This document shows positions 16,757 through 34,180 of a stretch of DNA of 64,000 nucleotides, piece by piece. Every line of letters begins with the position of its first letter. Positions within the stretch are counted from its first letter, which is position 1. The DNA comes from Yoonia rosea. GTDB lineage: Bacteria; Pseudomonadota; Alphaproteobacteria; Rhodobacterales; Rhodobacteraceae. The notes under the pieces were generated by a model, which worked only from the letters and a program-made list of their open reading frames with translations, was not told the DNA's origin and made no database searches. The DNA is taken from contig NZ_FTPR01000001.1 in NCBI RefSeq assembly GCF_900156505.1, forward strand, positions 248,001 through 312,000, in the 5' to 3' direction. Both the position numbers and the translations under genes were made by a program.

Positions 16757-16820
16757 TCCGTCGCACTTGTAAGCAATGGAAACCATGGTAACACTTTGCC
16801 AGGATACGGGTGGAGGTACT

Positions 16821-18131
16821 ATGCGCATAGTCTTGGGGTTAGCGGCAATCATCGTTGCGGATACCGCTTTTGGCGACGCGCTGCCCGCACCTTTGACAGA
16901 GGCGGATTTCGCCCCCGTACGTGAGATCGAGGCCCGTTTGGGCCAGCTTTTGTTCTACGATCCCATCCTGTCCGGCAACCGCAACGTCTCTTGCGGGACC
17001 TGCCACCATCCGGCCTTCGGCACAGGCGATGGTTTGTCACTGGGTATCGGTGACGGGGGGATCGGTCTGGGGCCGAAACGTGTGGCGGACCCCGACAATA
17101 TGCCGGAACAGCGGATACCGCGAAATGCACCGGCTCTCTTCAACCTCGGCGCATACGAGTTCACAGTGCTCTTCCATGATGGCCGGATCGAGGTAGACCC
17201 CGACCGCCCCGGTGGACTGCGGACACCGCTTGATGCGGATATGGTCACCGGTTTTGCCTCGCTTCTTTCTGCGCAAACCATGTTTCCGGTGCTCAGCCCC
17301 GACGAAATGGCAGGTCACTATAGCGAAAATGAAATTTCCCAAGCGGTGCGGCGTGGCGTGATCACGGGGCAGGGTGGTGCTTGGGACCTGATCTCGCAGC
17401 GCGTGCGCGACATCCCCGCCTATGCCGACAGCTTCATCGCGACCTATGACCATATCGACGCGCCCGATCAAATCACCTTCGCCGATATCTCGAACGCCAT
17501 CGCGGCCTTCATGGAATTCGAGTGGCGCTCTGACAATGCCCCGTTCGACGCGGTCCTGCGCGGCGAAGCCACGTTACCCGAACCCGCCGCCACCGGCATG
17601 AACCTGTTTTACGGTGACGCAGGATGTGCAAGCTGCCACAGCGGCCCGTTCCTGACGGATCATGAATTTCACGCAATGGGCGCCCCCCAGATCGGTCCCG
17701 GCAAGGCTGCGCGCTTTGAAAGCCACGCCCGCGACGAAGGCCGTTTCCGCGTGACAGGTGATCCTGCCGATCTCTACGCCTTCCGCACGCCATCCTTGCG
17801 CAACGTGGCCTTGACCGGCCCTTACGGTCACGCGGGCGGACATCGCGATTTGCGCAGCTTTATTGAAGCACATCTCGATCCGGTTGCGGCGCTGGAAACC
17901 TATGATCTGACCAATGCGGTCCTGCCCGCGCTTCCCGTTGATGACACGCGTGGCCTGGCGGATAGCGCTGCGATCGCGCAGGCCGTCACCTATGCCCCCC
18001 GCCGGATAACAGACGCGCAGATCACGTCCTTGGTGGCGTTTCTGGACGCGCTGACTGACCCCGCCGCGATTGATGGAAAACTGGGCATTCCTGACGCCGT
18101 GCCAAGCGGGCTGCCGATAGACCAGCCCTGA
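16821..18131 (+). CDS. MauG/di-haem cytochrome c peroxidase-family protein 1
   Basis: This is a periplasmic protein of 436 residues with a signal peptide (MRIVLGLAAIIVADTAFG). Two CXXCH haem-binding motifs are visible: CGTCH near residue 57 and CASCH near residue 270. The family catalyses peroxide reduction, or in MauG and MbnH oxidises protein residues such as Trp. The block LGQLLFYDPILSGNRNVSC and the spacer motifs closely match a second copy at 30466-31767. The start at 16821 is chosen because GGAGG precedes it and the signal peptide begins there. It is convergent with the CRTAC1-type gene downstream. Confidence 0.88.
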   Translation: MRIVLGLAAIIVADTAFGDALPAPLTEADFAPVREIEARLGQLLFYDPILSGNRNVSCGTCHHPAFGTGDGLSLGIGDGGIGLGPKRVADPDNMPEQRIPRNAPALFNLGAYEFTVLFHDGRIEVDPDRPGGLRTPLDADMVTGFASLLSAQTMFPVLSPDEMAGHYSENEISQAVRRGVITGQGGAWDLISQRVRDIPAYADSFIATYDHIDAPDQITFADISNAIAAFMEFEWRSDNAPFDAVLRGEATLPEPAATGMNLFYGDAGCASCHSGPFLTDHEFHAMGAPQIGPGKAARFESHARDEGRFRVTGDPADLYAFRTPSLRNVALTGPYGHAGGHRDLRSFIEAHLDPVAALETYDLTNAVLPALPVDDTRGLADSAAIAQAVTYAPRRITDAQITSLVAFLDALTDPAAIDGKLGIPDAVPSGLPIDQP

Positions 18132-30465: not shown

Positions 30466-31767
30466 TCAATCGACGGGTAGGCCGCTGGGGACGGTGTCAG
30501 GGCGGCCCATCGGGCGGGTATGGGCGGTTTCGCCGGTCAGCGCGTTCAGGAAGGCGATGAGGTCTGTGATTTCGGTGTCGGTCAAAGCAATGGGGCGCAT
30601 GTCGATCGCGGCGGATTGACGGGCCAGTTCCAAACGGTCCTGGCGGATCGCGAAGTCAGCTGCGGCGAGCCAGGGCACTTCAGGCAGGTTGGCCTGTGCC
30701 GGTGTCCACGCCGCACCCGTGCCAATGGGGTCGGCGTGGTGGCGGATGATACCGTCCAATGTGGCATAGGCACCGTTGTGGCCGTAGGGCGCGGTCAGGG
30801 CCACATTGCGCAATGAGGGCGTCCTGAATTTATAGGCATCCTGTGGCAGGTTGGTTTCGGCCATACGGCCTACATCGCGTGAAATCTGGTCCCAGGGCCG
30901 CGTGCGCCCCGGGCCGAAGGCGGGCAGGCCGAGCGCATGGAAACTCTGATCAGTAAAAAGCGGCCCCGCGTGACAGGATGCGCAGCGACCCGTGAAGAAA
31001 AGTTGACGGCCCCGTTCGGCGTCCTCGGGCAGTGGCGTGCCCGCGAGCCATTTGTCGTAGGAACTATCGTAGGATTGCCATTCGCTGATGATGAAAGCGC
31101 CCAAAGCATTGCCGATTTCCACGATGGTCACATCAGCGGGTTCTTCAATGTGGTCAAAGGCTTGGACGAACATGCTCCCATAGGCAGGGATCGTACGCAC
31201 CCGTTTGGCGATGATGGGCCAGGCTACATCAATCCGGTCATGAGTGGCGCCTGCGATTTCGTTTTCGCGGGGGTTTCCGGCCATTTCGAATTGCGACACC
31301 ATGGGAAAAAGTGCCTGTGCAGCCACGAGGTTATCAAGGCCCGCCGGCAGCCATTCCTCGGCGGGGGAATCGTAGCCGTTGCCGTAGATCTCCGAGCGCG
31401 TCAGACGGCCGTCATGGAACAGCGTTTCAATGTCATTGTGTCCGAGATTCCAAAGGCTTGGTGCATTTCGGGGAATGCGTTTGCGGATCGCATCAGGGCC
31501 GGATCCGGCCGTGCGTTCGGGGCCAACGCCAACGCCGCCCTCGCCAATCCCGAGCGAGAGGCCGTCACCGCCTGCGTGATCGTGGTGGTGACAGGTCCCG
31601 CAGGAGATATTCTTGTTTCCTGACAGTATCTTATCGTAGAAAAGCAACTGCCCGATGCGGGCTTGATCCGGGTCAACCTGGATGTAATCATCAGGGTCTA
31701 TCCCCTGTGCCGTCGCCAGACTGGCCCCCAGAAAGAGCCAAAGGACCGCTGTATGGAACGCGTACAC
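30466..31767 (-). CDS. MauG/di-haem cytochrome c peroxidase-family protein 2
   Basis: This is a periplasmic protein of 433 residues. The GTG start at 31767 gives a good signal peptide (AFHTAVLWLFLGASLATAQG), and no other start codon gives one. Haem motifs are CGTCH (ISCGTCHHHDHAGG) and CASCH (GRCASCHAGPLFTD). Blocks IGQLLFYDKILSGNKNISC and FRTPSLRNVALTAPYGHNG match the copy at 16821-18131, so the two are paralogues. The first codons overlap the divergent Sel1 gene's start by 15 bases. The neighbouring Tat peptide and HPrK-PqqD genes make a protein-modifying role worth considering, though unproven. Confidence 0.85.
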   Translation of the reverse strand: MYAFHTAVLWLFLGASLATAQGIDPDDYIQVDPDQARIGQLLFYDKILSGNKNISCGTCHHHDHAGGDGLSLGIGEGGVGVGPERTAGSGPDAIRKRIPRNAPSLWNLGHNDIETLFHDGRLTRSEIYGNGYDSPAEEWLPAGLDNLVAAQALFPMVSQFEMAGNPRENEIAGATHDRIDVAWPIIAKRVRTIPAYGSMFVQAFDHIEEPADVTIVEIGNALGAFIISEWQSYDSSYDKWLAGTPLPEDAERGRQLFFTGRCASCHAGPLFTDQSFHALGLPAFGPGRTRPWDQISRDVGRMAETNLPQDAYKFRTPSLRNVALTAPYGHNGAYATLDGIIRHHADPIGTGAAWTPAQANLPEVPWLAAADFAIRQDRLELARQSAAIDMRPIALTDTEITDLIAFLNALTGETAHTRPMGRPDTVPSGLPVD

Positions 31768-32253
31768 AACCTGTACACAACCTGTACCTACATTTGTGCA
31801 GCCGTGTTGTTTTTTGCGGCACCTGCGCAGGCCGATATGGAAGTGGCGCGCGATCTGATGGAGGCGGGCGACTATGCCGAGGCGCGCGCGCTCTTTGAGG
31901 TTTATGCGCGGTCCGGCAACGCCGAGGCTGAAGAGTTGATCGGTGTCATGTACGCGCTTGGCCTGGGTGTTGCGCGCGACGATGAACGGGCGTTCGAGTG
32001 GTATCTGCGGGCATCTTTGAAAGGGCATCCTGGCGCACAATCCGGCTTGGGGTGGTACTATGAAGTGGGCCGGGGCATTCCCGCGCCTGATATGGTGAGA
32101 GCGTATCTTTGGTACGCATTATCGGCAATAGGCGGGGACCCTGATGCGCTGGATTCGCTGGAGTTGATCACCCCGCGCCTGACGCCGGAAGAACGCGCGC
32201 GGGCAGAGGTGCTGATTGATGACTACAAAGGCTGGATGTATCCGTTTCGCTGA
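31753..32253 (+). CDS. Exported Sel1-like repeat protein
   Basis: This 166-residue protein has a probable signal peptide (about residues 1-27, ending FFAAPAQA). Sel1/TPR-like helical repeats follow (DYAEARALFEVYARSGNAEA, LGLGVARDDERAFEWYLRAS, HPGAQSGLGWYYEVGRGI). Such repeats mediate protein-protein contacts. The ATG at 31753 lies inside the 5' end of the divergent MauG-type gene, in a tandem ACAACCTGTAC repeat. A later ATG at 31834 would avoid the overlap but lose the signal peptide. The 237 bases downstream, to the Tat peptide gene, hold nothing recognisable. Confidence 0.8.
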   Translation: MERVHNLYTTCTYICAAVLFFAAPAQADMEVARDLMEAGDYAEARALFEVYARSGNAEAEELIGVMYALGLGVARDDERAFEWYLRASLKGHPGAQSGLGWYYEVGRGIPAPDMVRAYLWYALSAIGGDPDALDSLELITPRLTPEERARAEVLIDDYKGWMYPFR

Positions 32254-32490: not shown

Positions 32491-32838
32491 ATGACAGATA
32501 AGACAACCGCAGTTTCACGCCGTCAGCTTTTGACCCGCATCGGCGGTCTGGCCGCCGCTGCCTATACGGTGCCTGCATTTACAACGATGTCGATGGCACA
32601 CGCCTCGGATGGGGCTTCTGCAGCATCCGCTAACAGCCCGGCAAGCTCACCAAGCGAGCCAAGCGCACCAAGCGAGCCAAGCGCACCGAGCGAGCCAAGC
32701 GCACCAAGCACACCAAGCACACCCAGCACGCCAAGCACTCCGAGTGCGATCAGCGGTCCTTCGGACGCAACCGATCCCGGTTCCTGCGGCGAGTCGGGCG
32801 GTACCTGGAATTGGTCAAATAGTTCTTGTAACTCTTGA
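32491..32838 (+). CDS. Tat-signal Ser-Pro-repeat peptide, possible modification substrate
   Basis: This 115-residue protein starts with a twin-arginine signal (TAVSRRQLLTRIGGLAAAAY) ending near MAHAS. A low-complexity region of PSEPSA then PSTPST triplets covers residues 53-85. A compact C-terminus follows with two cysteines and two tryptophans (CGESGGTWNWSNSSCNS). No enzyme motif is seen. The next gene on the same strand is an HPr-kinase-like/PqqD fusion whose family modifies or chaperones peptides, so the Ser/Thr-rich repeat or the Cys/Trp tail may be the target; that is inference. Its Shine-Dalgarno is AAGAAAGA. Confidence 0.75.
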   Translation: MTDKTTAVSRRQLLTRIGGLAAAAYTVPAFTTMSMAHASDGASAASANSPASSPSEPSAPSEPSAPSEPSAPSTPSTPSTPSTPSAISGPSDATDPGSCGESGGTWNWSNSSCNS

Positions 32839-32935
32839 TAGCGGGTTACGTTGTTCCAGGTCGGTGATCTGATGCTTTTGCACCGTTCAGTTGATGAACA
32901 CGGTGACGTGGTCCCTTTGCAGGGGCTGCGTCCTT

Positions 32936-34180
32936 ATGGATAAAACTGCGGAGGTTTGTTTGAACTTCGCCGGTTTGGATGCGCCTCTAAGGGTTGCGCA
33001 GCCCGATGTGGTCCGCCCCTTGCTTGATCCTGTCATAGGCGGATGGCCCTTTTCGGCGGTGCCATGCGCTGATCTGCATGCCAAGCCTGCCTTCGCCACC
33101 CTTCGTCCGCGTGACGCCAAAAAATGGCGTCTTGAAGCCCCACTTGCTGGCAAGCCGGCGGCCGATCATAACCCTGTGAATGCGATCTGTGATCTTGTGG
33201 TTGAAATGTCGTGGGAACGCCTGCGCAGCCGCCCTGATCTTTTGTGCTTGCATGCCGCAGCGTTGACGTTTGATGACCGCCTTGTGATTTTTCCCAATGC
33301 CCGCCGTGCCGGCAAAAGCCTTTTATCCGCGACGTTGGCACACGCGGGGCATGAGGTGTTTTCGGATGATTTTGTGCCGCTGGCTGTTGACCCGCAAAGC
33401 GGTGTCATCAGTGGCATGGCCAACGGGATCGCGCCGCGTTTGCGCATGCCTTTGCCGGATAATCTCTCTGCCACATTGGACAGTTGGATCATGGACCGGA
33501 TTGCCGTGCGGAATAAGCAATACGGGTATCTGACGGGCATTGATTTGCCGCAATCGGGCACCGTGGCGCCGGTGGGGGCCATTGTTGTGCTTGAGGGCGA
33601 TCCGACAATGACGGCGCCTGCGTCATTGACCCCTGTCACCCAAGAAGAGGCGATGGCCTCGCTGGTCACACAGAATTTTGGCCGTCAGGTGCATGCCGGG
33701 GCCATTTTGCGGGTCGCGGATGCGCTCACCCGCACGGTGCCTGTATTACGGTTGCGCTATAACAGGGTTGAGGACGCAGCGGCGCTTTTGCATGAGACCC
33801 CGCTCTTGCGTGATCTGCCTGCGGCGCAGATGGCCAAGGCCGATTTATCTGGCACCTTGCCGCTGGCGCCGCTGGACCTTCCGGATGTGGTAGTGGACAG
33901 GCCGGTTGATCTTGATGGCTATTTTGCAAAACTGCCGGACTTTACAGCCCTAGAGACCGGCACAGCGATGTATCTTGCCGACGGCGACGGGTTCGCGATC
34001 CATCGGTTGAACTCTGTCTCTGCAATCATTTGGACACTGCTGGATGAGGGGCTGACCGGGGCCGAGATGGTTGAGGTCATGCAGGGATTATACGTTGAAA
34101 TCTCTGAGGAACAGCTGCGAGCAGATGTTGCGGGCGCATTGGCGTTCATGTGGCAACAACGGCTCATCGCGCCGTCCTGA
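32936..34180 (+). CDS. HPr-kinase-like domain fused to PqqD-like domain
   Basis: This 414-residue cytoplasmic protein has an N-terminal HprK-related domain. Its P-loop-like motif is FPNARRAGKSLLSATLAH, and SDDFVPLAV resembles the Asp pair of HPr kinases. The last ~85 residues read as a PqqD-type peptide-recognition domain (FAIHRLNSVSAIIWTLLDEG, MQGLYVEISEEQLRADVAGA, QQRLIAPS). Separate HprK-related and PqqD-related proteins occur in the HPr-rel-A gene sets; here they are one chain. The glycines usual before the P-loop Lys are partly replaced by Ala/Arg. Start 32936 is preferred, with an AGGGG site; ATG 32894 is an alternative. A bidirectional terminator follows. Confidence 0.78.
   Translation: MDKTAEVCLNFAGLDAPLRVAQPDVVRPLLDPVIGGWPFSAVPCADLHAKPAFATLRPRDAKKWRLEAPLAGKPAADHNPVNAICDLVVEMSWERLRSRPDLLCLHAAALTFDDRLVIFPNARRAGKSLLSATLAHAGHEVFSDDFVPLAVDPQSGVISGMANGIAPRLRMPLPDNLSATLDSWIMDRIAVRNKQYGYLTGIDLPQSGTVAPVGAIVVLEGDPTMTAPASLTPVTQEEAMASLVTQNFGRQVHAGAILRVADALTRTVPVLRLRYNRVEDAAALLHETPLLRDLPAAQMAKADLSGTLPLAPLDLPDVVVDRPVDLDGYFAKLPDFTALETGTAMYLADGDGFAIHRLNSVSAIIWTLLDEGLTGAEMVEVMQGLYVEISEEQLRADVAGALAFMWQQRLIAPS

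Follow-up and report, generated by a model that had tools for sequence, protein, structure and literature searches.

The window analysed here is a stretch of 64,000 nucleotides from Yoonia rosea (assembly GCF_900156505.1, contig NZ_FTPR01000001.1, positions 248,001 to 312,000 of the forward strand), and the feature at issue occupies window positions 32,491-34,180. It is a module of two genes in line, both on the plus strand: a peptide gene (32491-32838), followed by a gene (32936-34180) for an HprK-type kinase fused to a PqqD-like RRE (recognition element of ribosomally synthesized and post-translationally modified peptides, RiPPs). The peptide begins with a leader of the twin-arginine translocation (Tat) type. 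The parts of the module are listed below (PEPCK, phosphoenolpyruvate carboxykinase).

32491..32838, plus strand: precursor-like gene for a 115-residue Ser/Thr-repeat protein with a Tat leader, ATG start
32491..32607, plus strand: Tat-type leader, residues 1-39 (SRRQLL, hydrophobic part, AHA), from the sequence and conserved columns
32563..32574, plus strand: YTVP, a YxxP motif, residues 25-28, where the RRE is proposed to dock, within the Tat signal's hydrophobic part
32617..32763, plus strand: low-complexity repeat with Ser/Thr at every third residue, residues 43-91, the proposed modification region
32785..32835, plus strand: C-terminal tail with two Cys (C99, C113)
32839..32935, plus strand: intergenic gap, 97 bp
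32936..34180, plus strand: kinase-RRE fusion, 414 residues from ATG 32936
32936..33820, plus strand: HprK/PEPCK-fold kinase domain, about residues 1-295
33251..33253, plus strand: invariant His106, at the position of the HprK/lasso-kinase His, spaced as BsfK H148 (PMC10368454)
33296..33319, plus strand: P-loop NARRAGKS, residues 121-128, with Asn replacing the first Walker A Gly
33365..33370, plus strand: invariant Asp144-Asp145 (FSDD), spaced as BsfK D186-D187 (PMC10368454)
33917..34177, plus strand: PqqD-like RRE domain, residues 328-414

The peptide reads MTDKTTAVSRRQLLTRIGGLAAAAYTVPAFTTMSMAHAS, then a Ser/Thr/Pro repeat, then the tail CGESGGTWNWSNSSCNS. A sequence-only reading of the window had described a 115-residue protein with an RR leader and PSEPSA/PSTPST repeats, 97 bases upstream of a single chain carrying an HPrK-like domain (AGKS, SDD) and a PqqD-like domain. 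Each of these elements was recovered, namely the SRRQLL leader and both repeats in the open reading frame (ORF) at 32491-32838, 97 bp from the peptide gene to ATG 32936, the RRAGKS loop and FSDD, and, on the same chain, a PF05402 (PqqD) match at residues 355-411 (33.2 bits against a cutoff of 23.4), which is the only Pfam match in the fusion. The ORF list starts the fusion at an upstream TTG (32891); we take ATG 32936. When the 97-bp gap was searched for a terminator or attenuator, one weak terminator-like site was obtained, not above shuffled sequences.

The gene pair is not a chance arrangement, since its order is kept across many genera. Within the organism's own family (a sample of 295 genomes), profile A1 finds the fusion in 23 genomes at E<1e-60, each of which is also among the 24 genomes where profile A6 finds the leader at E<1e-8; in the 24th leader genome (G196) the fusion's first residues stand at a contig end. 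The A1 threshold was set after viewing the list, in which the best piece from G123 scores 7e-66 and the next genome 1e-22; at E<=1e-3 the same profile matches 228 of the 295 genomes, mostly through short stretches around the P-loop. A single-sequence search reached 30 of the 295, with 24 long matches, including one in a genome (G047) whose kinase relative has no RRE. The source genome has a separate short HprK-like match besides the fusion (G000:C3), and in G123:C1 (L286) the fusion is read in two overlapping frames and may be interrupted, with a peptide gene that reads through.

A collection of named genomes gave 62 loci, whose titles name genera that we take to be of Rhodobacteraceae type, or metagenome-assembled genomes placed up to Pseudomonadota. 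The leader gene is present in 61 of them and the upstream peptide in 60, the exceptions being L120, which starts at a contig edge, and L116 (531 bp upstream), which has only a downstream leader gene. In wider samples (385 genomes for the class, 398 for the phylum), there are nine fused relatives of full length from outside the family (L124-L127, L153-L157), each with a leader match at E<=2e-5. The sequence-only reading held that a fusion widespread without the peptide would count against it; in the own family, every one of the 23 fusion genomes carries the leader, which speaks for that reading and leaves it supported overall. Outside the family the leader accompanies nine of the ten fused relatives looked at, the exception being G673:C9.

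The leaders follow the Tat-substrate pattern (S/T-R-R, a hydrophobic stretch, A-x-A), with RR placed as expected in 124-125 of 126. YxxP is found in 126 of the 127 unique leader proteins, stands 13 residues after RR in 121 and extends to YxxPx[LFMIV] in 125; the sole miss is in L008, where the script took an internal RR, and the identical protein in L082 reads SRRAALVRLGLGVGAAYCAPGL. In the A6 leader alignment (20 rows), Tyr, Pro and both Arg are equally invariant. Positions +11 and +13 after Tyr are Ala in 116 leaders each, counted by column on the 126 with YxxP only, so that full constancy of Tyr and Pro there is by construction. None of 50 control signals (Tat-model matches from 19 related genomes) has YxxP. 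These comprise 30 first controls and 20 further places, added because 19 of the 30 were by eye one Rieske-type family; two of the 20 have a YxxP more than 30 residues behind RR, outside the signal. Six leader look-alikes in other genomes also do without YxxP, three of them having AAY followed by other residues. According to section 7 of PMC12710340, YxxP is a characterised RRE motif of lasso peptides, and W/Y/LxxP/L/I is common to the FusE, McjB, PqqD and StsC groups. We propose, from these leaders, that YxxP inside the Tat signal may be a recognition element, a step beyond the sequence-only reading.

Of the 62 named loci, 27 (one cut at a contig end) have another Tat leader gene downstream, and the C-terminus of its protein resembles PepSY below the Pfam cutoff (20.3 and 15.3 bits against 24 in the two tested). 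Around 53 flanked loci the shared families, clustered and typed by Pfam on one member each (three types), include this PepSY-like protein, in 22 loci, together with a histidine kinase and an OmpR-type response regulator, each in 21. The window has no downstream PepSY-like leader protein, response regulator or histidine kinase, and represents a minimal two-gene version. One could take the repeat protein for an ordinary surface low-complexity protein and the kinase for an enzyme acting on another protein, the two being linked through a shared regulon, as the variable low-complexity tails and the two-component genes in 21 of 53 neighbourhoods each would allow; the two-way co-occurrence in 295 genomes, the match of the leader YxxP to the RRE motif and the two-gene version in the window make this very improbable.

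Both the HPr-kinase and the RRE relationships of the fusion are backed by profile and by model. In the model, the kinase domain adopts the PEPCK/HprK fold and the C-terminal part the winged-helix RRE fold of B1/PqqD proteins, close to TbiB1. His, GKS and Asp-Asp form an intact set at canonical spacing, invariant in all 29 rows of the A1 fusion alignment. Among database relatives, a hypothetical protein of Loktanella sp. 1ANDIMAR09 comes nearest, at 98% identity, and some others are named PqqD family peptide modification chaperone. The PEPCK fold match spans more residues than the HprK match, which favours the idea that the domain modifies the repeat otherwise than as a simple Ser/Thr kinase, by polyphosphorylation of a single residue, by nucleotidylation, or by adding a phosphate that is later sugar-capped as in pseudomycoidin. 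ThcoK, SyanK and BsfK with precursor variants are described as polyphosphorylating, and pseudomycoidin as bearing hexoses on its phosphate, in parts of PMC8498205 and PMC10368454. No sugar-transfer gene is found among the 15 larger and 2 smaller neighbours checked (window 16.8-40.2 kb), and we judge such chemistry quite unlikely.

Ser/Thr at every third residue is a trait common to the tails. Of 94 tails, 83% show Ser/Thr autocorrelation above permutation (z>2) at lag 3, compared with 71% at lag 6 and 3 to 12% at lags 1, 2, 4, 5 and 7; the lag-3 signal is seen in the first 50 residues of 93% of 27 PepSY-type tails, the sorting of peptide from PepSY being by text pattern with at least one row misplaced (L013). 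The other repeat residues shift among tails, from Pro/Glu/Ala to Gly, Arg, Lys, Tyr or Asp. Across six close relatives S58, S61, S64, S67, S70, S73, S76, S79 and S82 are invariant and most intervening residues vary. In 90 of 116 arrays (the 127 minus 11 that were too short, masked or had no motif match), Ser/Thr make up at least 80% of one phase over a stretch of 30 residues, an optimistic figure because the best phase was chosen. Of these 90, 77 use both AGY and TCN Ser codons, and DNA slippage alone as the source of the period is disfavoured by such mixed codon families.

There are a few unusual carriers that one should keep in mind. In G026:C11 (L283:2154-3536) an S8 protease has the same YxxP Tat leader plus a Ser-Gly stretch, on a contig other than the fusion's; it adjoins a sigma-factor-like ORF (by eye) and is a possible in-trans substrate. 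An unlinked leader paralogue in G206:C6 (L282:2480-2929) has SSSGG-type repeats, with YVAT replacing YxxP, and stands beside an S26 signal-peptidase-like gene. Kinase relatives with no detectable RRE occur in G047:C24 (L284) and G041:C87 (L289), and the Ser-repeat proteins preceding them have signals without YxxP and, by eye, similar C-terminal ends. These few cases fit a rule in which YxxP goes with the RRE and the repeat goes with the kinase.

Another reading makes the fusion mainly a Tat chaperone. Its RRE, with an HprK fold of little or no activity, would keep the signal of a low-complexity protein that is difficult to export occupied until translation is complete, with no covalent modification. 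The motif does sit in the very part of the signal that Tat must read, and the first Walker A Gly is replaced (by N, S, A, D or E, with N121 in the window) in 22 of the 29 A1 rows, Gly remaining in 7, all judged by eye. Against a chaperone stand the invariant His, GKS and Asp-Asp in 29 of 29 rows, the period of three kept in divergent tails, and the G047 relative, which has lost the RRE and still keeps GKS, DD and its Ser-repeat partner. We regard the chaperone as unlikely.

The product of the module is probably a Ser/Thr-repeat protein that is phosphorylated and exported. The fusion would use its PqqD-like RRE to bind YxxP within the hydrophobic part of the peptide's Tat signal, and the attached HprK-type kinase would phosphorylate the tail Ser/Thr spaced every third position. 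While held by the RRE the signal would be unreadable for the Tat machinery; upon release after modification, Tat would export the peptide and signal peptidase would remove the leader. Phosphorylation, with its sites in the repeat, is suggested by the precedent of BsfK, ThcoK and SyanK (in parts of PMC10368454 and PMC8498205). The architecture is consistent with RiPP-like, leader-guided modification of a core, and a role in envelope signalling may be read from the PepSY-like and two-component genes found downstream in many relatives.

Several observations weigh against this phosphorylation-and-export reading and should be set beside it. A late scan of weaker places gave one counter-example and one more fitting case (G041). 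The former, G673:C9 (L287:3045-4259), is a divergent fused kinase-RRE of 404 residues (A1 E 9e-27) with no leader or Ser-repeat ORF within 7.5 kb. That scan took in 11 kinase places whose E values lie between those of the full-length group and about 1e-10; separate kinase and RRE ORFs with no leader were found in G388, G085, G154, G230, G132:C114, G048 and G221, the last six from the own family, and kinase only in G045 and G102. Among 25 further kinase plus RRE loci (L128-L152), where the profile usually matched the parts apart (L138 is one ORF), 14 have a leader match at E<1e-4 and 11 have none within 1.5 kb; longer flanks of those 11 and four more places (15 regions) held no leader at E<=0.5. 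Both sets speak against the simple form of the reading. The seeds of the leader hidden Markov model contain YxxP, which makes its constancy partly selected, and TIGR01409 (Tat) gives no match to the window peptide at E<=1. In the tethered AlphaFold model (L084 and 22 others) the leader has a pLDDT (predicted local distance difference test) of 54-65 with a short strand at residues 31-36, the repeat 35 or less and the tail 53-84 (blocks of ten), and a docking contact is not readable. To these add the missing P-loop Gly, the 26 of 116 arrays below 80% Ser/Thr per phase, a few relatives almost without the repeat (L147, L135), and the two RRE-less cases, which may be one event because their tails are related by eye. 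More distant HprK plus PqqD loci with no Tat peptide (L180-L194) look like another system; the neighbours listed for them include, by eye, regulator-like, HlyD-like, ABC-like and glycosyltransferase-like ORFs.

More tentatively, the module may represent a new class of ribosomal leader-guided modification, in which two readers use one signal peptide in turn, first an RRE fused to a kinase, through YxxP, and then Tat, with export awaiting modification. Leader and Ser/Thr repeat would then be a portable tag, carried by small Cys-tailed peptides, PepSY-like proteins and one genome's S8 protease, and the phosphorylated form may feed a PepSY/two-component envelope signal. If the phosphorylation-and-export reading is right, RRE-guided peptide modification extends beyond classic natural-product clusters, bacteria such as Loktanella, Aliiroseovarius and Tabrizicola secrete phospho-repeat proteins, and modification is coupled to Tat export simply by a docking motif placed inside the export signal. 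YxxP within a Tat leader offers a ready search key, and the two-gene system lends itself to mass-spectrometric testing in E. coli.

As for the end of the peptide, the sequence-only reading spoke of a Cys/Trp tail; the two Cys recur in many Rhodobacteraceae-type members, whereas Trp is not general. The two-Cys tails of the upstream peptides L061-L122 recur as types (C...GGtW....C, C..GGtvv...dGvkvC, CSGPTDDDAGC and CGPENL..C). Two genes of the di-haem cytochrome c peroxidase/MauG family lie in the window at 16776-18131 (plus strand) and 30466-32040 (minus strand), with PF03150 matches of 118 and 111 bits. The former is followed by an FG-GAP/ASPIC-UnbV repeat gene on the opposite strand; the ORF of the latter and a Sel1-repeat ORF overlap, for which reason the gene probably starts further in. 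A link between the module and the neighbouring MauG-type gene through Trp modification was dropped on the ground that the tails do not generally carry Trp. A defence system was rejected as well, with no more than a single weak chance match.

Taken singly, RREs, HprK-type peptide kinases and Tat export are all known. The literature searched, in which subscription papers and preprints were thinly covered, yielded papers on lasso peptides, PQQ, RREs or unrelated subjects and none describing an RRE-fused kinase that acts on a Tat leader, an absence that is no proof; a word search of the main texts of the RRE-Finder paper and the 2025 RRE paper did not return 'kinase'. The nearest relative is lasso peptide phosphorylation (ThcoK, SyanK, BsfK, and the paeninodin kinase with B1/RRE), which, in parts of PMC10368454 and PMC8498205, shares the HprK-type kinase with the same His-Lys-Asp spacing, an RRE with a YxxP leader, and a Ser/Thr target in a ribosomal precursor. 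Here, in contrast, kinase and RRE are one chain, the leader is a Tat signal, and the target would be a long repeat of many Ser in place of one site. A lasso peptide cluster was rejected for the window, as the Pfam scan found no B2 protease or lasso cyclase among its main ORFs (16776-40194). The PqqD/RRE family (PF05402) shares the domain and the TbiB1-like model, and differs in that the domain is here fused C-terminally to a kinase. HPr kinase/phosphorylase shares the fold and the catalytic residue set, whereas the fusion has 13-18% identity to HprK in structure matches, an extra N-terminal part and the RRE. The TIGR04352 system pairs an HprK-related kinase with a PqqD-family protein. The fusion reaches 47.1 bits with this NCBIfam model (HprK-related kinase A) against a cutoff of 200, which denotes similarity and not membership, and here the two are fused and the partner is a Tat repeat peptide. 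We therefore file the module as a variant of leader-guided peptide phosphorylation that is neither a lasso system nor a member of TIGR04352.
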